60,143 bases of DNA, taken from positions 1 through 60,143 of the forward strand of contig CADCVF010000080.1 in the NCBI GenBank assembly GCA_902806095.1, read 5' to 3'. Below the pieces are notes generated by a model. The model did not search any database. It was not told where the DNA came from and worked only from the letters and a program-made list of their open reading frames with translations. Positions 3,508-48,943 of the stretch are shown here, in pieces. A program made the translations under genes and the position numbers. The number at the start of each line of letters is the position of its first letter. Position 1 is the stretch's first letter. Origin of the DNA: an uncultured Rubrobacteraceae bacterium. GTDB lineage: Bacteria; Actinomycetota; Rubrobacteria; Rubrobacterales; Rubrobacteraceae.

Positions 3508-3650
3508 GCTTGTCTGCACGCGCCCTATCGGGCGCTTGTCAGCATTTCAGCTTACACATGCCCGAGTCCTGGCTGACTTGCTGAGAGCCGCGAAGCGGCG
3601 GGCTGAAATGCTGACAAGCGGAGGCCGCAGGCCGGAGCGTGCTGACTAGC
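3508..3650 (+). repeat. Mosaic palindromic intergenic repeat, copy 1
   Basis: The core GCTTGTCAGCATTTCAGC (3534-3551) returns as its exact reverse complement at 3602-3619. Small GC hairpins are interspersed: GCGCCC-TATC-GGGCGC (3520-3535) and GCCGCGAAGCGGC (about 3588-3600), and the module GCGGAGGCCGCAGGCCGGAGCG, quoted here in two parts as GCGGAGGCCGC then AGGCCGGAGCG. Related mosaics lie at about 11.1, 34.3, 41.3, 45.5, 45.6, 58.5 and 59.2 kb. No coding potential is evident. Confidence 0.85.
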
Positions 3651-39097: not shown

Positions 39098-39739
39098 ATG
39101 ACCTCAAGGCCAGACAGAGTGAAGTTCGACGAGAACGGTCTCGTCCCCGTTATCGCCCAGGACGTGGCGACGGGCGACGTGCTTACGCTGGCGTACGCGA
39201 ACCGCGAGGCTCTCGACATGACGCTCTCCAGCGGCGAGGCCCACTACTACTCCCGCTCCCGCTCCGAGCTCTGGCGCAAGGGCGCGACGAGCGGCAACAC
39301 GCAGAAGGTCGTCGAGGTAAGGCTGGACTGCGACGCAGACGCACTCCTCTACATGGTCGAGCCCCGAGGACCAGCTTGCCATACAGGACAGAAGAGTTGC
39401 TTCTTCACCACCCTGGCCGGTGAAGGAGTGGGGATTGCGCCAGCGGGCGATAGGGAGGTCCCTTTCGGGGCGATGGTCGACGGACTGGCGGCGACGATAG
39501 CGCAGCGCCACAGGGAGATGCCTGAGGGCTCTTATACCGTCTCCCTGATCCAGAGTGGAAAGGAGCGGCTGGCCCAGAAGGTTGGGGAGGAGGCGGTAGA
39601 GGTCGTCGTGGCCGCGCTCTCTGACGAGAGGCTACCTGAGGAAGCGGCCGACCTGATCTACCACCTGCTCGTGTTGCTCGAGGAGCGGGGCGTCGGGGTA
39701 GAAGACGTGGCCAAGGTACTGCATGACCGCCACGGCTAA
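39098..39739 (+). CDS. hisIE: Bifunctional phosphoribosyl-AMP cyclohydrolase/phosphoribosyl-ATP pyrophosphatase
   Basis: Of 213 residues, the first 115 form HisI, with [20 protein letters not shown] and the metal cysteines in DCDAD...[11 protein letters not shown]. Residues about 126-213 form HisE, with the MazG-like [13 protein letters not shown] and [14 protein letters not shown]. The fusion catalyses steps 2 and 3 of histidine synthesis. The 3' end overlaps trpE by 17 bases. Confidence 0.95.
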
Positions 39740-41234
39740 CCTCGTCCCTTCGCTCGGCGAGGCCCGCTCTCTCGCCCGCACCTACGACGTGGTGCCGCTC
39801 TACACCGAGTTCATAGGAGACCTCGAGACTCCGATCTCGGCGGTCCTCAGGTTCGCTGAGGAGGACACGGTATTCCTGCTCGAGAGCGCAGAGTCGGCCG
39901 AGAGGTTCGGCCGCTACTCTTTCCTCGGCTTCGACCCCAAGCGCACGCTCTCCTACAGGGACGGCCTCTACACGGTCGTCGACGCCGATGGTGTGCGGGA
40001 GGTTCCCGCAGCGGACCCTTTCAGAGGCCTGGCCGAGATCGTCGGCAAGAAGAGCGTGGCGCCTCTCCCCAACCTCCCTGCGTTCGTGGGGGGCGCCGTA
40101 GGGTACTTCTCCTACGACGCCGTGCGTTATCTCGAGCACCTTCCCCATGCTCCCAAAGACGACCTCGACATCCCCGAGGCCTACTTCGCCGTTACTGACA
40201 CTCTGATCGTCTTCGACCACCTAAGGCACAAGGTGCTAGTCGTCTCGCTGGTCGACGCCGCAGGCCTACGCGACGTGGAGGGCGATGGCTTCTCGGCCGC
40301 CTACAGGCGGGCCGCCGACGATATACGCAGGATCGCAGAGCGTCTCTCGGCCCCGCTGGTGCGCCGGGCACCGGCGTTCGGCACTGGGGTCGAGATCTCC
40401 TCGAACTTTACCAGAGAGCGCTACGAAGAGGCCGTAGAGAAGGCGAAAGAGTACATCAGGGCCGGGGACGCCTTCCAGATCGTCCCTTCCCAGAGGTTCG
40501 CGGCGGAGATAGGGGACCTCGACCCGCTCCTCCTCTACCGTGGCTTGCGCACGGTCAACCCATCCCCTTACATGACCTACCTCAAGCTCGGCGGCCTCTC
40601 TATCGTCGGCGCATCACCCGAGCCCCTGGTGCGGGTCGAGGGAAGGCGTGTGATGACCCGCCCCGTCGCGGGGACCAGCGGACGCGGCGGCACGCTGGAA
40701 GAAGACGCAGCCCTGGCCGAAGAGCTGCTCGCCGACGAGAAAGAGCGGGCCGAGCACGTCATGCTCGTAGACCTTGGTCGCAACGACCTCGGTCGCGTCA
40801 GCGAGGTCGGCTCTGTCGGGCTCGAGAGCTTCATGGAGATAGAGCGCTACTCGCACGTCATGCACATCGTCTCAACCGTCGAGGGGAACCTGCGCGAGGA
40901 CCTGACGGCCCTCGACGCCCTCGCGGCGGCCTTCCCCGCGGGGACCGTCTCAGGCGCGCCGAAGGTAAGGGCTATGGAGATCATCGACGAGCTCGAGAGC
41001 ACCCGCCGCGGACCCTACGCGGGCGCCACGGGCTACTACGGCGTCGACGGCCGTCTCGACACCTGCATAACGCTCCGCACGGCACTCCTCAAAGACGGCG
41101 TCGCCTACTTCCAGGCAGGAGGCGGCGTCGTCGCCGACTCAGTCCCGTCTCTGGAGTACGAGGAAACCCGTAACAAGGCCCGTGCCATGGAGCAAGCGCT
41201 CGAGGTCGCCCGCTCCCGCGAGATGTGGCTGTAG
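39723..41234 (+). CDS. trpE: Anthranilate synthase component I
   Basis: This 503-residue chorismate-utilising enzyme starts tryptophan synthesis. The feedback pocket LLES is near residue 51 ([20 protein letters not shown]). The catalytic core has [40 protein letters not shown] and the C-terminal [20 protein letters not shown]. It overlaps hisIE by 17 bases, which is a common actinobacterial arrangement. No trpG lies downstream in this window. Confidence 0.95.
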
Positions 41235-41258: not shown

Positions 41259-41355
41259 TGGTCAGCACGCTCAGGCCTTCGCTTGTCAGCATTTCAGCTA
41301 GTCAGCTTTTTGTTTTGGCTGAAATGCTGAGAGTCGCGAAGCGGCGGGCTGAAGT
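41259..41355 (+). repeat. Mosaic palindromic intergenic repeat, copy 4
   Basis: It contains GTCAGCACGCTCAGGCCTTC, GCTTGTCAGCATTTCAGC (the exact core of copy 1), TAGTCAGCTTTTTGTTTTGG, and GCTGAAATGCTGAGAGTCGC followed by GAAGCGGCGGGCTGAAGTGC. The module AGTCGCGAAGCGGCGGGCTG is also in copy 1. Confidence 0.85.
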
Positions 41356-41406: not shown

Positions 41407-42006
41407 ATGTTAGGGATTTTTCTCGTGTTGTTCAGCTATATTCTCGGCTCCGTGCCGACCGGGTATCTGGTCGGGCGGGCCCTCGGGGTGGACGTTCGGA
41501 AGGTAGGGAGCGGGAACATAGGTACGGCGAACGTGCTGCGGGCCGCGGGGAAGTGGGCCGCCGTACTCACGCTCGCAGGCGACATGCTCAAGGGTCTCCT
41601 TCCCGTGGTGGTCGCCAGGCTCACCGTGCAGAACGAATGGCTCATCGCCACCGTCGCTTTCGCTGCGGTGATCGGTCACTGCTGGCCCGTCTTCCTGCGC
41701 TTCCAGGGTGGCAAAGCTGTGGCGACCGGCGCCGGTACGACCATAGGGCTAGCGCCATTGATCGGGCTCTGCCTCTTCGCCTTCTGGTGGGCTGTCGTGC
41801 TCCTTAGCCGCTACACTTCGCTCGGCGCGATAGCCGTCATGGTAGTGAGCCCCGTGGTGTTCTGGCTCTCGGGCCAGCCGCTCCCTTACTTGCTCTACAC
41901 CATAATCGGGGGGGCGCTCGTCCTGTGGAGGCACCGGGAGAACGCGCGGGCCCTCCTGAAGGGCACGGAGAGGAAGGTAGGCCAGCGGACGGAGGGGGAG
42001 AGCTAG
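41407..42006 (+). CDS. plsY: Acyl phosphate:glycerol-3-phosphate acyltransferase PlsY
   Basis: This 199-residue membrane enzyme makes lysophosphatidic acid from acyl phosphate and glycerol-3-phosphate. The three motifs are GSVPTGYLVGRALGVDVRKV with GSGNIGTANVLRAAGK, FRFQGGKAVATGAGTTIGL-like (FLRFQGGKAVATGAGTTIGL), and a C-terminal loop around WRHRENARALLKGTE. About five to seven hydrophobic helices are visible. It directly abuts the next gene, so a polycistronic unit is likely. Confidence 0.94.
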   Translation: MLGIFLVLFSYILGSVPTGYLVGRALGVDVRKVGSGNIGTANVLRAAGKWAAVLTLAGDMLKGLLPVVVARLTVQNEWLIATVAFAAVIGHCWPVFLRFQGGKAVATGAGTTIGLAPLIGLCLFAFWWAVVLLSRYTSLGAIAVMVVSPVVFWLSGQPLPYLLYTIIGGALVLWRHRENARALLKGTERKVGQRTEGES

Positions 42007-44274
42007 TTGCTTGGAGAGGCTTACAGCGGCAAGAAGATCCTGCTTACCGGGGGGACGGGCTTCCTCGGGACGGCGCTGGTCGAGAAGATGCTGCGCTCCC
42101 TCCCCGACCTCGGGCGCCTCTACCTCCTCGTCAGGTCCTCCCGCGGTAAGGGTGCAGCAGAGCGGCTCGAGAAGGACGTGCTCGGCGCCACAGCCTTCCG
42201 CGGTCTGCGCGAGAAGCTAGGCGACGACTTCGAGGAGCGCGTCTTGACGACGCTCCGCGTCCTCGAGGGAGACGTGCACGCGCCTTCACTGGGGCTCGCT
42301 GAGCAGGATCTCGCCGAGCTCTCGCGCGAGGTTGATGTCGTGATCCACTCCGCCGCTTCGGTCATCTTCGACGCGCCGCTCGACGCCGCGGTCGACTCGA
42401 ACGTCCGCGGGACTCTGGGGCTTCTGAAGCTAGCACGTACCTGGGAGAAGCGGCCGCTGTTCATGCACATCTCGACGGCTTACGTGGCCGGAACCAGCAA
42501 GGAGGACGCACCAGAAGCGCCGCCAGGCGCTACCTCGCCGAACGGGACGACCCTCGACGCGCGCGAGGAGGTCCTCGGCCTCGAGGCTGTCGTGGCGGAG
42601 GTGAATGAGGCTTCGCAGGAGCGGTCACTGCTGAGGCGCTTCGAGACGGAAGCGCGGCGAGAGCTCGGGATGGTCGGAGAGGAGGAGGAGGTCGCAGGGA
42701 GGGTAGACCAACTGAGGCGGGCCTGGATGCGCGAGCGGCTCGTCGAGCGGGGGACGCAGCGGGCGCGGGAGCTCGGGTGGAACGACGTGTACACCTTTAC
42801 CAAGTCGCTCGCAGAGCGGATGGTGGTCGCAGAACGGGGTGAGACGCCGCTCGTCATACTGAGGCCAGCCATCATAGAGAGCAGTCACAGAGAACCCTAC
42901 CCTGGTTGGATCCAGGGCACGAGGATGGCCGACCCCATAATCATGGCATTCGCGAAGGGCATTCTGCGCGAGTTTCCAGGCAACCCGAAAAGCTACGTCG
43001 ACATCGTCCCCGTCGACCATGTTGTGAACGCGATCCTCGCCGCCGGAGTGCGCCGCCCACAAGAGCCCGAGGTCTTCCAGATCGCCTCGGGAGAACGCAA
43101 CCCGATCCGTTACCGCGACCTCTACGATATCGTTCGCGACTACTTTATACAGCACCCCCTGCGGGATTCTGGCGGGCGTCCGATCCAGGTGCCCGAGTGG
43201 TCCTTCCCCGGTCGCAGGCGGGTCGAGGGACAGCTCAAGATAGAGCTTGCCGGCCTCAAGGTAGCAGGCATACTCGCCGCACGGATGCCTGAAGGCCACA
43301 TGGCCTCGGACGCGCGCCAGCGGATCGCACGCGCCGAGAAGCGCGCCAGAATGAGCCTCTACTACAGCCGCATCTACGGCGCCTACGCGACCATGACCTC
43401 GACGTTTGCGAGCTCCCGCACAGAGGCCCTCTACACAGCCCTGCCGCCGGAGGACCGCGAGGAGTTCCCGTTCGACATTGCCGAGGTCGACTGGCGGGCG
43501 TGGATGCAGGGGGCGCACCTGCCGGCGCTCACGACTCGCCCGAGCCGCAAGAAGCGCAAGAAGAGGACCGAGGAGAAGCCTGGCGAGGTAGCGGCGATCT
43601 TCGACGTTGACGGCACGCTCGTCGGTTCCAACGTAGTCTCCTACTTCGCGTGGCTCAGGATGAGGGAGCTTCCTGCGGCCGTGCGCCCGCTCTGGCTCGC
43701 CTGGTTTTTGACCAAGATCCCTTACTACTGGGGGCTGGATAAGATCAGCCGCGCCCACTTCAACCGCGCCTTCTACAAGAACTACGCGGGCTGGAAGCCC
43801 TCCCGCGCCAGGCACCTCGGACAGGAGAGTTTCGCCGGGTTTACCCTGGATCGCATCTTCCCTGAGGCGTTGCGGCAGCTAAGAGACCACAAGGCCGCTG
43901 GCCACCGCGTCGTCCTGCTCTCTGGCGCGCTGGACTTCCTCCTCGAGCCGATGAAGGACCTCGCCGACGACGTGCTCTGCTCCACCCTGGCCCAGGAGAA
44001 CGGCACCTACACGGGCGAACTGACGGGTGCCCCCGTGGCCGGCGACGCCCGCGCCAGGATGCTCGCCTCCTTCGCCAGGCGCCGCGGCCTCGACCTCTCC
44101 CGCTCCTACGCCTACGCCGATTCGATCTCAGACCTCCCCATGCTCGAGGCCGTCGGAAACCCCGTCGCCGTCAACCCTGACCGGCGGCTAGGGACGGCGG
44201 CGACGGACCGTGGATGGAAGGTCGAACACTGGGACAAGAACGGTGCCGCAGACGGCGTGGCCAAGAAGATCTAG
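42007..44274 (+). CDS. Fatty acyl-CoA reductase (SDR/male-sterility type) fused to HAD-IB phosphatase
   Basis: This 755-residue fusion starts at TTG directly after plsY. Residues 1 to about 370 form an extended-SDR acyl-CoA reductase: KKILLTGGTGFLGTALVEKM with TGGTGFLG at 14-21, the active-site Y262-x3-K266 in YTFTKSLAERM, and the FAR-like VPVDHVVNAI. A basic linker near residue 515 leads to a HAD-IB phosphatase with nucleophile D533 in FDVDGTLVGSN, VVLLSGALDFLLEP and the acidic motif YADSISDLPMLEAVG. The first part should make fatty aldehyde or alcohol from acyl-CoA or acyl-ACP; the HAD substrate may be a lipid phosphate, by inference. Confidence 0.85.
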   Translation: MLGEAYSGKKILLTGGTGFLGTALVEKMLRSLPDLGRLYLLVRSSRGKGAAERLEKDVLGATAFRGLREKLGDDFEERVLTTLRVLEGDVHAPSLGLAEQDLAELSREVDVVIHSAASVIFDAPLDAAVDSNVRGTLGLLKLARTWEKRPLFMHISTAYVAGTSKEDAPEAPPGATSPNGTTLDAREEVLGLEAVVAEVNEASQERSLLRRFETEARRELGMVGEEEEVAGRVDQLRRAWMRERLVERGTQRARELGWNDVYTFTKSLAERMVVAERGETPLVILRPAIIESSHREPYPGWIQGTRMADPIIMAFAKGILREFPGNPKSYVDIVPVDHVVNAILAAGVRRPQEPEVFQIASGERNPIRYRDLYDIVRDYFIQHPLRDSGGRPIQVPEWSFPGRRRVEGQLKIELAGLKVAGILAARMPEGHMASDARQRIARAEKRARMSLYYSRIYGAYATMTSTFASSRTEALYTALPPEDREEFPFDIAEVDWRAWMQGAHLPALTTRPSRKKRKKRTEEKPGEVAAIFDVDGTLVGSNVVSYFAWLRMRELPAAVRPLWLAWFLTKIPYYWGLDKISRAHFNRAFYKNYAGWKPSRARHLGQESFAGFTLDRIFPEALRQLRDHKAAGHRVVLLSGALDFLLEPMKDLADDVLCSTLAQENGTYTGELTGAPVAGDARARMLASFARRRGLDLSRSYAYADSISDLPMLEAVGNPVAVNPDRRLGTAATDRGWKVEHWDKNGAADGVAKKI

Positions 44275-44275
44275 G

Positions 44276-45508
44276 TTGCAAGCCCTCCTCTACCGAAAAT
44301 CCGTCCCACGCTACCTCCTGATGCGCGCCGGCTCACGGCGGATAAAGTCCCTCGAGACGAGCCGCTTCTCCCCACTCCAACTCGAAGACGTCCCCGAACC
44401 CAAACTCCCGACCCCGGAATGGGTACGCATAAGGCCGCTCCTCTCGGGTATCTGCGGCTCGGACCTCGGGACACTCTCCTCCGAAAACTCACCGTACTTC
44501 TCCCCTATAACCTCCCCTCCTTTTGTGATGGGCCACGAGGTTGTAGGTGAGACAGTCGAAGACAATTCCGGCTTCCGCGCGGGCGAGCGGGTCGTCCTCG
44601 AGCCAGCCCTCGGCTGCGCGGTCCGCGGCATAGACCCGCCTTGCTTCTACTGCGCCTCGGGCCGCCACGCCCTGTGCCTGAACGTCGCCAGAGGGGATAT
44701 CTCTGCGGGCATCCAGACGGGCTTCTGCCACGACACGGGTGGCGGCTGGTCGCACCAAACGCTCGTCGCCCACCCCTCGCAGCTCCACCGCGTACCCGAT
44801 GCCGTGCCCGACGAGGCCGCCGTAGCCATCGAGCCCCTCGCCTGCGCCGTACACGCCGCACTCGGGTCCCCCCCAGCCCCCGACGACACCACCCTGGTCA
44901 TCGGGGCTGGCAGCGTCGGCCTCCTTACCGTCGCGGCCCTGAGGCACCTCACACAAGCAGGCCGCATCATCTGCGTCGCCAAGCACGAGCGCCAGAAGAA
45001 CGAGGCGCTTCGTCTGGGGGCGACCGAAGTCATCCACCCGAAAGAGACCTATACGAAACTCCCCGAGATGCTAGGCACGGAGGCCTACAAGCCCGAGCTC
45101 GGCAAACCGGTCGTAGTGGGCGGAGCCGGCAAAGTCTTCGAGTGCGTAGGCGCTCCTGGCACCATGGAGGACGCCCTCCGCCTCGCTGCGCCAGGTGGCG
45201 AGGTCACGCTCGTCGGGATGCCAGGCGCGAAAAGCACACTCGACCTCACCGCCCTCTGGTACAAGGAAGTCCGTCTCACAGGAAGCTACGCCTACAGCGT
45301 CGAGGAGTACGAGGAAAACAAAACGAGCAGCTTCCAACTCGCACTCCGCATCGCCCCCGAGATAGACCTACAAACGCTCGTGGGCCCCGGCTACCCACTA
45401 GAGTCCTACAAGGAGGCCATAGCAGCCGCCCGCTCGGCAGGACACGAAGGGCACGTCAAGGTGGTCTTCGACCATAAGAGCACGTCAGCAAGTCAGCATG
45501 CGCCCTGA
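44276..45508 (+). CDS. Zinc-dependent medium-chain alcohol dehydrogenase
   Basis: This 410-residue protein has catalytic zinc ligands in CGSDLGTLS and MGHEVVGE, a structural-zinc cysteine cluster (CAVRGIDPPCFYCASGRHAL and the following C), and the Rossmann motif VIGAGSVGLLTVAAL. The start is TTG 44276 (MQALLYRKSVPRYLLM), two bases after the reductase stop; an ATG at 44210 would overlap the reductase by 65 bases. The last nine residues (STSASQHAP) and the stop are encoded by the intergenic repeat. Together with the preceding reductase it may interconvert long-chain alcohol and aldehyde, by inference. Confidence 0.88.
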   Translation: MQALLYRKSVPRYLLMRAGSRRIKSLETSRFSPLQLEDVPEPKLPTPEWVRIRPLLSGICGSDLGTLSSENSPYFSPITSPPFVMGHEVVGETVEDNSGFRAGERVVLEPALGCAVRGIDPPCFYCASGRHALCLNVARGDISAGIQTGFCHDTGGGWSHQTLVAHPSQLHRVPDAVPDEAAVAIEPLACAVHAALGSPPAPDDTTLVIGAGSVGLLTVAALRHLTQAGRIICVAKHERQKNEALRLGATEVIHPKETYTKLPEMLGTEAYKPELGKPVVVGGAGKVFECVGAPGTMEDALRLAAPGGEVTLVGMPGAKSTLDLTALWYKEVRLTGSYAYSVEEYEENKTSSFQLALRIAPEIDLQTLVGPGYPLESYKEAIAAARSAGHEGHVKVVFDHKSTSASQHAP

Positions 45509-45690
45509 CGGGCGCTTGTCAGCATGTCAGCTATGTAAGGTGTGGTGAGAGGCTCGTGCGCTTGAGATAATGACACAGGAGCACCCGATCATCGAGAGGC
45601 GTCTCCGACCGCGAGACCTGACCAGCTGAAATGCTGACAAGCGGAGGCCGCAGGCCGAGGCGTGCTGACTGGCTGACATGCTAAAACGAC
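45481..45690 (+). repeat. Mosaic palindromic intergenic repeat, copy 5 (two parts)
   Basis: Part a (45481-45532) has GTCAGCAAGTCAGCA, the hairpin GCGCCC-TGAC-GGGCGC, and CTTGTCAGCATGTCAGC. Part b (45623-45683) has AGCTGAAATGCTGACAAGCG followed by GAGGCCGCAGGCCGAGGCG and TGCTGACTGGCTGACATGC. Parts a and b form inverted arms around 90 bases of ordinary sequence, which holds GATAAT (45566-45571) as a possible -10 element. The first part runs into the 3' end of the alcohol dehydrogenase gene. Confidence 0.85.
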
Positions 45691-45703: not shown

Positions 45704-47278
45704 ATGCGACCCGGCATTACGACCATCCTGGAGAAGAACAGCCCCCCCATGTGGTTCTACGCGGGGGACAGGTTTCACTACGAGAAGCTGCCTGAGGGGA
45801 CGCGTGTGATCTACCCGCCAGGACCTTCGGAACCGCTCGCCGAGCCCGGAGTTGCTATAGAGCGTGCACTGCTCGAGCCGATAGAGATGGAGCCGCTGCA
45901 CGAGCTCCTCACGCCAGGCATGAAGCTGACCATCGCCTTCGACGACCTATCGATACCGCTGCCGCCGATGCAGAAGCCGGACGTTCGTCAGCTGGTCATC
46001 GAGAAGGTACTCGAGAAAGCCGCCGCCAGGGGCGTCGAGGATATCCACCTCATCGCGGCCCTGGGTCTACACCGCAGGATGACGGAGGCCGAGCTCAGAC
46101 ATTGCCTCGGGAACAGGATCATGTCCCGCTACTACCCTGACCGGCTCTATAACTACGATGCCGAGGAGCCTGACGGGAACGTCATAATAGGTGAGACGGA
46201 CCTCGGCGAGGAGGTCAGCGTCAGCCGCCGCGTCGCCGAGAGCGACCTACTAGTCTACGTGAACGTGAACTTCATCCCCATGGACGGGGGCCACAAGTCC
46301 GTGCACACGGGCCTGGCCCCCTACTCCTCTATCCGCCACCATCACACCCCGAAGATGCTGGCTAACACCCGCTCCCTGATGGACCCACCGAACTCAGCCA
46401 TGCACGCCTCCATAAACCGGATGGGCAGGATCTTCGACGAGCACGTCAAGGTCTTCCACATAGAGAGCACCCTGAACAACCAGACCTACCCTTCCGTCTT
46501 CGACTTCATGGCGAAACCCGAGTACCAGTGGAACATGGTCACAAGGGCCAACTTCCTTGCCACCCACAGGGCCACGCAGACGATGCCGCTCGAGGCCGCA
46601 AGGCGCATCTCCCACTCCATAAACGCTCCGCACCGGATGACCAGCGTTCATGCCGGCGCCACCGAGCCCGTCCACGCCGAGACCCTGGCCGACAACTACA
46701 GGCAGATGGTCATCCCCGCCGAGGGCCAGTCTGACGTGCTTCTGTTGGGCATCCCTTACCTTGGGCCCTATAACGTCAACTCGATCATGAACCCCATCCT
46801 CGTCTTCAATATGTTGCTCGGCTACCTCTTCAACCTCTACAAGGGCAAACCACTCGTGCGCGAGGGAGGGGTCCTGATCGGCACCCACCCCATGCCGGCC
46901 AACTTCAACAAGGTCCACCACCCGAGCTACATAGACCTCTGGAACGAGGTCTTCCCCGAGACGAACGACGTCCATGAGATCCACCGCCGCTACGAGGAGA
47001 AGTACGCCAACGACCCCTGGTACCGTACCCTCTACCGAAACTCCTACGCCTACCACGGCGCACACCCTTTCACAGTCCTCTACTGGGCAGCCCACGCCCT
47101 CGACCACCTCGGCGGCGTCATACTCGTAGGCGGTGACCCCGAGAACACGAAGCGCATGGGACTCGGACGCGCCGACACCGTAGCCGATGCGCTCCAGATG
47201 GCCCAGGATACCGTGGGCCCGAACCCGAGCACGACCTACATGCACATCCCGCCACTCTTCCTGTGCGAGGTCACTTAG
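45704..47278 (+). CDS. LarA-like protein (lactate racemase/DUF2088 superfamily)
   Basis: This 524-residue protein is about 100 residues longer than typical LarA. The LarA N-domain is recognised by IAFDDLSIPLPPMQ and LGLHRRMTEAEL, where H123 matches the first nickel ligand. GGHKS (K198) matches the cofactor lysine, and an HHH cluster (212-214) lies where LarA has its last histidine. The other ligand, normally a His about ten residues before the lysine, seems to be Asn (VNVNF), so racemase activity is uncertain. No larB, larC or larE lies in the window. The real substrate is unknown. Confidence 0.7.
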   Translation: MRPGITTILEKNSPPMWFYAGDRFHYEKLPEGTRVIYPPGPSEPLAEPGVAIERALLEPIEMEPLHELLTPGMKLTIAFDDLSIPLPPMQKPDVRQLVIEKVLEKAAARGVEDIHLIAALGLHRRMTEAELRHCLGNRIMSRYYPDRLYNYDAEEPDGNVIIGETDLGEEVSVSRRVAESDLLVYVNVNFIPMDGGHKSVHTGLAPYSSIRHHHTPKMLANTRSLMDPPNSAMHASINRMGRIFDEHVKVFHIESTLNNQTYPSVFDFMAKPEYQWNMVTRANFLATHRATQTMPLEAARRISHSINAPHRMTSVHAGATEPVHAETLADNYRQMVIPAEGQSDVLLLGIPYLGPYNVNSIMNPILVFNMLLGYLFNLYKGKPLVREGGVLIGTHPMPANFNKVHHPSYIDLWNEVFPETNDVHEIHRRYEEKYANDPWYRTLYRNSYAYHGAHPFTVLYWAAHALDHLGGVILVGGDPENTKRMGLGRADTVADALQMAQDTVGPNPSTTYMHIPPLFLCEVT

Positions 47279-47947: not shown

Positions 47948-48102
47948 ACCAGGCACACTAGCCGTTCCAAGGACGTCCGTCAAGAACCGTCGAAACGACG
48001 CCTCCCGGCGTTGCGTAATCCTCTTGCGCGTGTAGCCAGGGCGGGCAAAGTTGGGTTCACCTGCTGGCACAGGCCACAGTCCGCACTCCGATAGTGTTAT
48101 AC

Positions 48103-48123
48103 TTTGTGCACAATGTGAACAAA
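48103..48123. promoter_or_regulatory. Imperfect 21-bp palindromic operator
   Basis: Arms TTTGTGCACA and TGTGAACAAA flank a central A (9 of 10 positions match); the left arm overlaps an inner perfect palindrome, TTGTGCACAA. It begins at the end of a TATACT -10 box (48098-48103) and lies 30 bases before the RHH-DUF433 gene. Ribbon-helix-helix antitoxins typically autorepress by binding such sites. Confidence 0.6.
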
Positions 48124-48152
48124 ACGTGCTTACTACTCCAAAAAGAGGTGCG

Positions 48153-48599
48153 ATGCCGACCAGGGCGCGAGGGCTTCGTCTACCGGAGGACTTACAGGAG
48201 GAGATAGAGCGTGAGATGAGGCTGCGGGGGACGACGTTCTCTGAGGTAGCCTCTTCACTGCTGCGAGAAGCGGTGAGGATGCGTCGGGTTCCTGGGATAG
48301 TGTTCATGGATGGTCCGGTGGGGCGCAGAGCCTCTATTGCGGGGACGGGGCTCGACGTGTGGGAGGTAATCGCCACCTTCAAGGGCGTGGGGGAGGATCG
48401 TGGGCGGCTCGAGGCTTCCTACGGGTGGCTCTCTGGTCGGCAGCTTTCTGCGGCGCTCGCCTACTACGGGCTCTATCCGGAGGAGATAGACGCCCGGATC
48501 GAAGAAGAGGAGTACTGGACGCCCGAGAAGCTTTACGCGGAGTTCCCGTACCTCAGGCCGCGTAGCAGCGTTCGGTCCTCGGACGAACCCGAGGCTTGA
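48153..48599 (+). CDS. Antitoxin: ribbon-helix-helix N terminus plus DUF433
   Basis: This 148-residue protein starts at ATG 48153 after AAGAGGTGCG. Residues about 5-45 resemble an RHH DNA-binding fold (GLRLPEDLQEEIEREMRLRG followed by TTFSEVASSLLREAVRMR). Residues about 50-120 carry DUF433, a winged-helix-like domain (RRASIAGTGLDVWEVIATFK, then LSGRQLSAALAYYGLYPEEI). DUF433 proteins are typical antitoxins for DUF5615 toxins. The stop overlaps the toxin start by three bases. Confidence 0.85.
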   Translation: MPTRARGLRLPEDLQEEIEREMRLRGTTFSEVASSLLREAVRMRRVPGIVFMDGPVGRRASIAGTGLDVWEVIATFKGVGEDRGRLEASYGWLSGRQLSAALAYYGLYPEEIDARIEEEEYWTPEKLYAEFPYLRPRSSVRSSDEPEA

Positions 48600-48943
48600 G
48601 ATTTCTCCTGGACGAGGACCTGCCGCCCCTGGCGGCTGAGGTGGCGCGTGGGCTCGGCCTAGACGTGCTCAACGTGCACGAGTTGGGCCGCAGGGGCATC
48701 GCGGACCGCGATCAGCTCCGCTTCGCGTCAGAAGAGGGACGCATCTTCCTCACCCGCAATCACAGGGACTTCATCGAGCTTACCGTCGAGTTCTACCGGG
48801 CGGGAGAGGCGCATCCCGGAGTGCTACTCGTGCGCCGCCACCTGCCCAACGACCAACCGGCGAGGATCGCGCACGCGCTGAAGCGTTGGGCCGACGCCCG
48901 GGCGGCTATGCCTGCGGCGTTCGACGGCGTGGACTTCTTGTAG
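48596..48943 (+). CDS. Toxin: DUF5615 PIN-like protein
   Basis: This 115-residue putative ribonuclease of the PIN-like group has acidic residues in FLLDEDLPPLAAEVARGLGL, the HELGRRGIADRDQLRFASEE block and the RIFLTRNHRDFIELTVEFYR core. TTG start in the antitoxin stop (TTGA), so translation is coupled. Its stop lies only 3 bases from the stop of the convergent dual-OB gene. Confidence 0.85.
   Translation: MRFLLDEDLPPLAAEVARGLGLDVLNVHELGRRGIADRDQLRFASEEGRIFLTRNHRDFIELTVEFYRAGEAHPGVLLVRRHLPNDQPARIAHALKRWADARAAMPAAFDGVDFL

Follow-up and report, generated by a model that had tools for sequence, protein, structure and literature searches.

The question raised by this locus was whether a fatty acyl reductase gene, lodged between plsY and the gene of a zinc-dependent dehydrogenase, belongs to a pathway for unusual membrane lipids. 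The locus lies in a stretch of 60,143 nucleotides (the window, meaning the whole of the DNA that was analysed) from an uncultured member of the Rubrobacteraceae; Rubrobacter and its kin are heat- and radiation-tolerant bacteria. In a preliminary description, the three genes had been put forward as a possible undescribed lipid operon, with fatty alcohols named as precursors of ether lipids and wax esters.

The features of the locus are listed in Table 1. The abutment of plsY, the fusion and the dehydrogenase gene (ADH) was reproduced, with 0 bases at the first junction and 1 base at the second in the open reading frame calls, spacings that both depend on the TTG starts being right; the longest reading frame of the ADH begins upstream, at a GTG codon at 44210. 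The identities first given to the three proteins (PlsY, a FAR/HAD-IB fusion and a zinc-dependent MDR dehydrogenase) were upheld by Pfam and NCBIfam, and the motifs cited for the fusion, TGGTGFLG, Y262/K266 and FDVDGT, were all found. Along the fusion, the PF07993 stretch was followed by a weak PF03015 match and then by the HAD-IB domain, recognised by PF12710 and by TIGR01490, the latter over its cut-off in NCBIfam. The genome-wide search returned a single PlsY match, making this the sole PlsY of the genome.

Table 1. Positions of the features of the locus within the window
Feature	Position	Strand	Details
plsY, glycerol-3-phosphate acyltransferase	41407..42006	+	199 aa, ATG start; PF02660 E 2.2e-52, TIGR00023 above curated cut-off
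FAR/HAD fusion (NADPH-type fatty acyl reductase + HAD-IB phosphatase)	42007..44274	+	755 aa, TTG start; PF07993, TIGR01490
FAR Rossmann/catalytic region of fusion	42043..43035	+	TGGTGFLG; Y262, K266; Pfam stretch 13-343
HAD-IB phosphatase domain of fusion	43591..44190	+	nucleophile D533; motif IV D705/D709; TIGR01490 stretch 529-728
Zinc-dependent MDR dehydrogenase (ADH), polyol/threonine dehydrogenase-like	44276..45508	+	PF08240 + PF00107; TTG start assumed
LarAH, homologue of LarA-superfamily enzymes with a nickel-pincer-nucleotide (NPN) cofactor (group 14/15/16)	45704..47278	+	NF052592 E 2.7e-251
GTCAGCATTTCAGC sites	41285-41331, 45518-45638, 3538-3615, 34343, 59196		8 in window with at most 1 mismatch (0 expected)

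A scan for promoter and terminator consensus sequences returned nothing above chance. A dispersed 14-mer, GTCAGCATTTCAGC, was observed upstream of plsY and within the gap between ADH and LarAH, often as inverted pairs. In the genome, the exact 14-mer occurs 191 times and its reversed control not once, a pattern that is REP- or MITE-like. Two adjoining small genes at 48051-48943, the second of them DUF5615/PIN-like, resemble a toxin-antitoxin unit. The TrpE encoded at 39723-41234 is 41% identical to a second TrpE-like protein of the genome (L045:10901-12421, G000:C70), whose gene is followed by an aminotransferase-like gene; these two perhaps encode an aminodeoxychorismate synthase and lyase.

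Conservation within the class Rubrobacteria was assessed in 39 genomes from 13 genera, among which 22 were of good quality (completeness of 90% or more, contamination of 5% or less). A match to the fusion of some kind was found in all 39. The orthologous fusion, either whole or split at contig ends, was present in 34, representing all 13 genera, and in every one of the 22 good-quality genomes; the remaining five genomes were incomplete or draft, with weak matches or a fragment only. Among 30 class loci that were read, PlsY lay directly 5' of the fusion in 29, the other being situated at a contig end, while the ADH lay directly 3' in 28, the exceptions being one contig end and one locus without an ADH. 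Spacings were mostly of a few bases, and mostly below 12 bases between PlsY and the fusion (29 loci, many genera). Rubrobacter taiwanensis (locus L007) was among the named genomes with the block. Given such a distribution of the orthologous fusion, and given that plsY and the ADH flank it nearly everywhere, the block is not a chance arrangement. LarAH was located downstream on the same strand, 0.1–6 kb away, in most complete class loci; it had moved away from the block in one genome (G012).

Outside the class, 357 actinobacterial genomes were sampled and 28 fusion loci were fetched. The fusion was present in 60 of these genomes, at about 37–47% identity and mostly at full length. It was followed by the ADH in 27 of the 28 loci, LarAH came next in all 25 loci where the contig continues, and a PlsC-type acyltransferase stood after LarAH in all 23 that had sequence left (four of which were confirmed by Pfam). 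Homologues of LarB and LarC, which serve cofactor synthesis, were encoded further downstream in four loci. PlsY was detected beside the fusion in none of the 28 loci (tblastn, E 1e-6, at which a more divergent PlsY could escape), and it was therefore rejected as the universal partner of the fusion. The acyltransferase of the unit is PlsY in the class Rubrobacteria and PlsC elsewhere.

The fusion and a close LarAH (at least 48% identity) occurred together in 58 of the 357 genomes, while two had the fusion only, one had LarAH only and 296 had neither (p = 3e-63, kinship ignored). The exceptions were incomplete genomes (G098, 62%; G291, 66%) or a contig end (G076). Carriers were spread over about 20 families, and three families (f2, f10 and f11) mixed members having both genes with members having neither. 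From the gene order outside the class and this co-occurrence, the conserved unit was taken to be FAR/HAD-ADH-LarAH-acyltransferase. The original three-gene extent is thus correct in that those genes abut, but the conserved unit takes in LarAH too. The proposed coupling of the FAR/HAD protein to PlsY, central to the preliminary description, holds inside the class but not beyond it, where plsY went undetected near the fusion.

These results bear on a reading in which plsY is a housekeeping gene that merely happens to lie upstream in the class, the pathway itself comprising the fusion, the ADH and LarAH. Such an arrangement would explain why plsY went undetected at the 28 other loci, and as the sole PlsY in its genome the protein must serve all phospholipids; the tight spacing between PlsY and the fusion in many genera of the class, and the presence of another glycerolipid acyltransferase in the other classes, weigh against it. 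It was given somewhat less than an even chance, and is compatible with an ether-lipid pathway.

One Streptomyces plasmid encoded a full-length fusion (35%) with neither an ADH nor a LarAH match next to it; having the fusion therefore does not in itself mean having the module. Nor is LarAH a neighbour of such genes in general: in four loci with a more distant LarAH subgroup (38–42% identity), from genomes free of the fusion, nothing alongside matched FAR, ADH or PlsC. In two loci of genomes without the fusion (L152 and L154), a member of the distant subgroup (about 41%) was seen directly after a gene that looks, by eye, like a CoA-transferase.

The FAR domain displayed the features of alcohol-forming fatty acyl reductases, that is, NAD_binding_4, the FAR C-terminal region, the glycine-rich motif and YxxxK, although the C-terminal PF03015 region, at 29.6 bits, fell short of the curated threshold of 35.4 bits. 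Its best solved relative was rice DPW (7eoz, E = 5.6e-77), while reductase domains of NRPS and PKS gave values of about 1e-16 to 2e-16; the predicted fold (pLDDT 86.6) matched 7eoz with a TMt of 0.82. Judged by sequence and model, the domain is predicted to be a full fatty-alcohol-forming reductase of the plant and animal type. It is like DPW in having the full FAR domain, in sequence and fold, but it is bacterial and joined to a HAD-IB phosphatase. Across 36 aligned fusions, Y262, K266, D533, D705 and D709 were invariant, and the general acid of the HAD domain was Asp or Glu. The HAD-IB domain resembles phosphoserine and histidinol phosphatases in NCBIfam.

The fusion contains the only FAR of the genome. 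Two other genes gave strong PF07993 matches and were ruled out as lipid FARs, one being beside a PKS and the other being an NRPS-type adenylation-reductase. In this biosynthetic cluster (L042; G000:C82:38000-57900), the PKS, of about 2200 aa, precedes a stand-alone protein of the thioester-reductase type (PF07993), what may be a glycosyltransferase, and a membrane protein of large size. At L043:8777-12157 (G000:C39) there is a stand-alone, NRPS-like adenylation-carrier-reductase protein with the layout of a carboxylic-acid reductase; matches of comparable length, in open frames of about 1000–1130 aa, recur in many class genomes.

The zinc and active-site residues of the ADH (C60, H87, E88 and E186) were invariant in 27 sequences. 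Its nearest solved structures were xylitol, threonine and sorbitol dehydrogenases, and it also resembled threonine 3-dehydrogenase in NCBIfam. Polyol and threonine dehydrogenases act on secondary alcohols. For LarAH, the model had a pLDDT of 90 and its best fold matches were single-histidine LarA structures (9q3k, TMt 0.86). Four residues, D80, H123, K198 and H214, were invariant in 32 sequences and correspond by alignment to D72, H108, K184 and H200 of LarA; the NPN-binding lysine, the Ni-ligand histidine and one catalytic histidine are kept. The position of LarA H174 is not preserved; two asparagines close by, N187 and N189, are invariant, and the equivalent of R75 is unconserved. LarC is encoded in the genome, in agreement with the predicted use of NPN by LarAH. 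As a two-histidine LarA 2-hydroxyacid racemase LarAH was rejected, because H123 (H108 in LarA) is retained while the H174 position is not. LarAH, a relative of nickel-cofactor enzymes, is the best conserved of the cluster's unexplained members, and we know of no earlier tie between it and lipid synthesis.

Within the LarA lactate racemase superfamily, LarAH compares with groups 14, 15 and 16 and with the single-histidine LarA of Blautia and Streptococcus (PMC7583248, PMC12611868), having in common the fold, the NPN lysine, the Ni histidine and one catalytic histidine. It differs from LarA in the replacement of the second catalytic histidine and of Arg75, and in a context of lipid genes where LarA has one of carbohydrate genes. 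Groups 14 and 15 are without H174 (PMC12611868), and group 16 may not consist of NPN enzymes (PMC7583248); where such residues are missing from a group, its members may not be inverting a stereocentre but could carry out a different hydride-mediated reaction (PMC7583248). Characterised LarA homologues racemise 2-hydroxy acids (PMC11770544, PMC7583248), which favours a role in making or modifying a polar head group or hydroxy-acid lipid: LarAH and the MDR dehydrogenase would act on a 2-hydroxy acid, the HAD domain would dephosphorylate it and the FAR domain would reduce an activated carboxylate. The similarity of the HAD-IB domain to phosphoserine and histidinol phosphatases, and of the MDR enzyme to threonine 3-dehydrogenase, would fit such a scheme. 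It is distinctly improbable, however, as the FAR domain is nearer to long-chain alcohol-forming FARs than to amino-acid reductases, LarAH has lost the other catalytic histidine, without which inversion is not expected, and the acyltransferase neighbours indicate acyl-chain chemistry.

Alkylglycerone-phosphate synthase (AGPS) and wax synthase, both named in the preliminary description as enzymes to look for in the genome, were not found there; four FAD-oxidase_C matches were all similar to glycolate oxidase or D-2-hydroxyglutarate dehydrogenase. The animal FAR1-GNPAT-AGPS route has in common with the module FAR-type alcohol formation beside glycerolipid acyltransferases, and a dehydrogenase possibly acting at glycerol C2, but the genome has no AGPS, PlsY (using acyl phosphate and G3P) replaces the DHAP acyltransferase, and LarAH is present. 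No Ger-type DUF2229 protein was found in the genome, the Thermotoga maritima control being positive. The Ger/PlsA ester-to-ether reductase of anaerobic bacteria has the presumed end product, an sn-1 alkyl ether, in common with the module, but the enzymes are different.

The elb/ElbD system of Myxococcus xanthus has a FAR domain, a HAD hydrolase and an acyltransferase in common with the Rubrobacteria module (PMC9131029), and ether lipids are reported in the order Rubrobacterales. ElbD, which is required for the ether lipids of Myxococcus, combines FAR, ligase, ACP and acyltransferase, while ElbB is a HAD protein and ElbE an SDR (PMC9131029). In the module, by contrast, the FAR is fused to HAD rather than to ligase, ACP and acyltransferase; the acyltransferase, PlsY or PlsC, has a separate gene, an MDR dehydrogenase takes the place of the SDR, and LarAH is additional. 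Relatives of the FAR from outside the actinobacteria (34–38% identity) were sought with short query-derived patterns, by which nearer FARs of other function may be missed. Some were FAR-AMP-ligase-acyltransferase proteins, matched over residues 1–508, with the layout of ElbD apart from the ACP (by Pfam in L011 and L017; further members of L011-L023 are of comparable length). Others were FAR-acyltransferase proteins with an adjacent HAD-IB (L024, L026 and L028). The link to ElbD concerns the FAR domain only, M. xanthus ElbD having been matched by its described layout and the relatives by sequence.

WS/DGAT (PF03007) was absent from all 10 genomes sampled in the class, against 47 positives among 119 genomes of the phylum. 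Wax ester synthesis in the class was ruled out on this basis, and the wax-ester role suggested at first was abandoned. Many module-bearing genomes of other classes do also carry WS/DGAT, and wax esters are therefore possible there. This lends some weight to the view that the module makes a fatty alcohol for an alkyl glycolipid, an alcohol-containing cell-wall lipid or a storage lipid, with ether phospholipids arising from an unrelated enzyme; the FAR domain by itself predicts a fatty alcohol, and the MDR enzyme could be the aldehyde or alcohol step. We consider this unlikely, given the want of a wax synthase in the class, the tight coupling to PlsY or PlsC, the failure to find a further known ether route in the genome, and the fact that plain alcohol formation needs no LarAH.

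The operon was instead interpreted, with moderate confidence, as the route by which Rubrobacteria make sn-1 alkyl-ether glycerophospholipids, related to elb/ElbD but divergent and split up. This is based on the FAR-type reductase, the PlsY or PlsC neighbour, the ElbD-like character of the FAR, the lack of AGPS, Ger and wax synthase in the genome, and the ether lipids published for the order; the lipid role first proposed for the operon, with ether lipids as product, was accordingly retained. Rubrobacterales are reported to be dominated by mixed ether/ester lipids (title of reference 28 in PMC11150832). Against the ether-lipid pathway, the substrates for which MDR enzymes are chiefly known are polyols and threonine, and none of the operon genes encodes an enzyme with proven ether-forming chemistry.

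What was observed is the content and order of the genes, their conservation and co-occurrence, the intact active sites and the lack of other known routes in the genome; the following substrates and order of steps are those we infer for the ether-lipid pathway. The FAR domain, going by its family, would convert acyl-ACP or acyl-CoA to a fatty alcohol (or aldehyde), PlsY (or the PlsC-type enzyme in other actinobacteria) would supply or finish the acylated glycerol phosphate, and the HAD domain would, again going by its family, take the phosphate off an intermediate of the pathway. The MDR dehydrogenase and LarAH would act on a glycerol or hydroxy intermediate near the ether-forming step, probably through (hidden) redox at a secondary alcohol; more speculatively, their redox at glycerol C2 would permit ether formation and replace AGPS. 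It is also conceivable, if highly improbable, that LarAH is itself the ether-forming enzyme and a nickel hidden-redox counterpart of the flavin-dependent AGPS. The NPN cofactor would then accept the hydride at C2 of the glycerol in 1-acyl-G3P, the fatty alcohol made by the FAR would replace the acyl group on C1, and the hydride would be returned; as it would come back on the same face, one histidine would be enough.

The claim that the operon is undescribed is doubtful for its core. A lipidomics paper on Rubrobacterales from 2023 reportedly mentions in its abstract a putative operon similar to one for ether lipids in other aerobes among the bacteria, and if this is the operon described here, the core assignment has already been proposed. 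The link of LarAH and PlsC to the operon appears to be new. To our knowledge, this is the first strong context for a LarA group of undefined function that is missing one catalytic histidine: across about 20 of the sampled families of actinobacteria, LarAH and a fatty-acyl reductase are present together almost without exception, with glycerolipid acyltransferases as neighbours. The questions of ether-lipid synthesis and of LarAH function are both now open to simple deletions and assays. For Rubrobacterales, the locus points to specific genes with which an entire order of bacteria may make membranes rich in ether lipids while having no AGPS, Ger or full-length ElbD, and this gene set bears on the 'lipid divide'.
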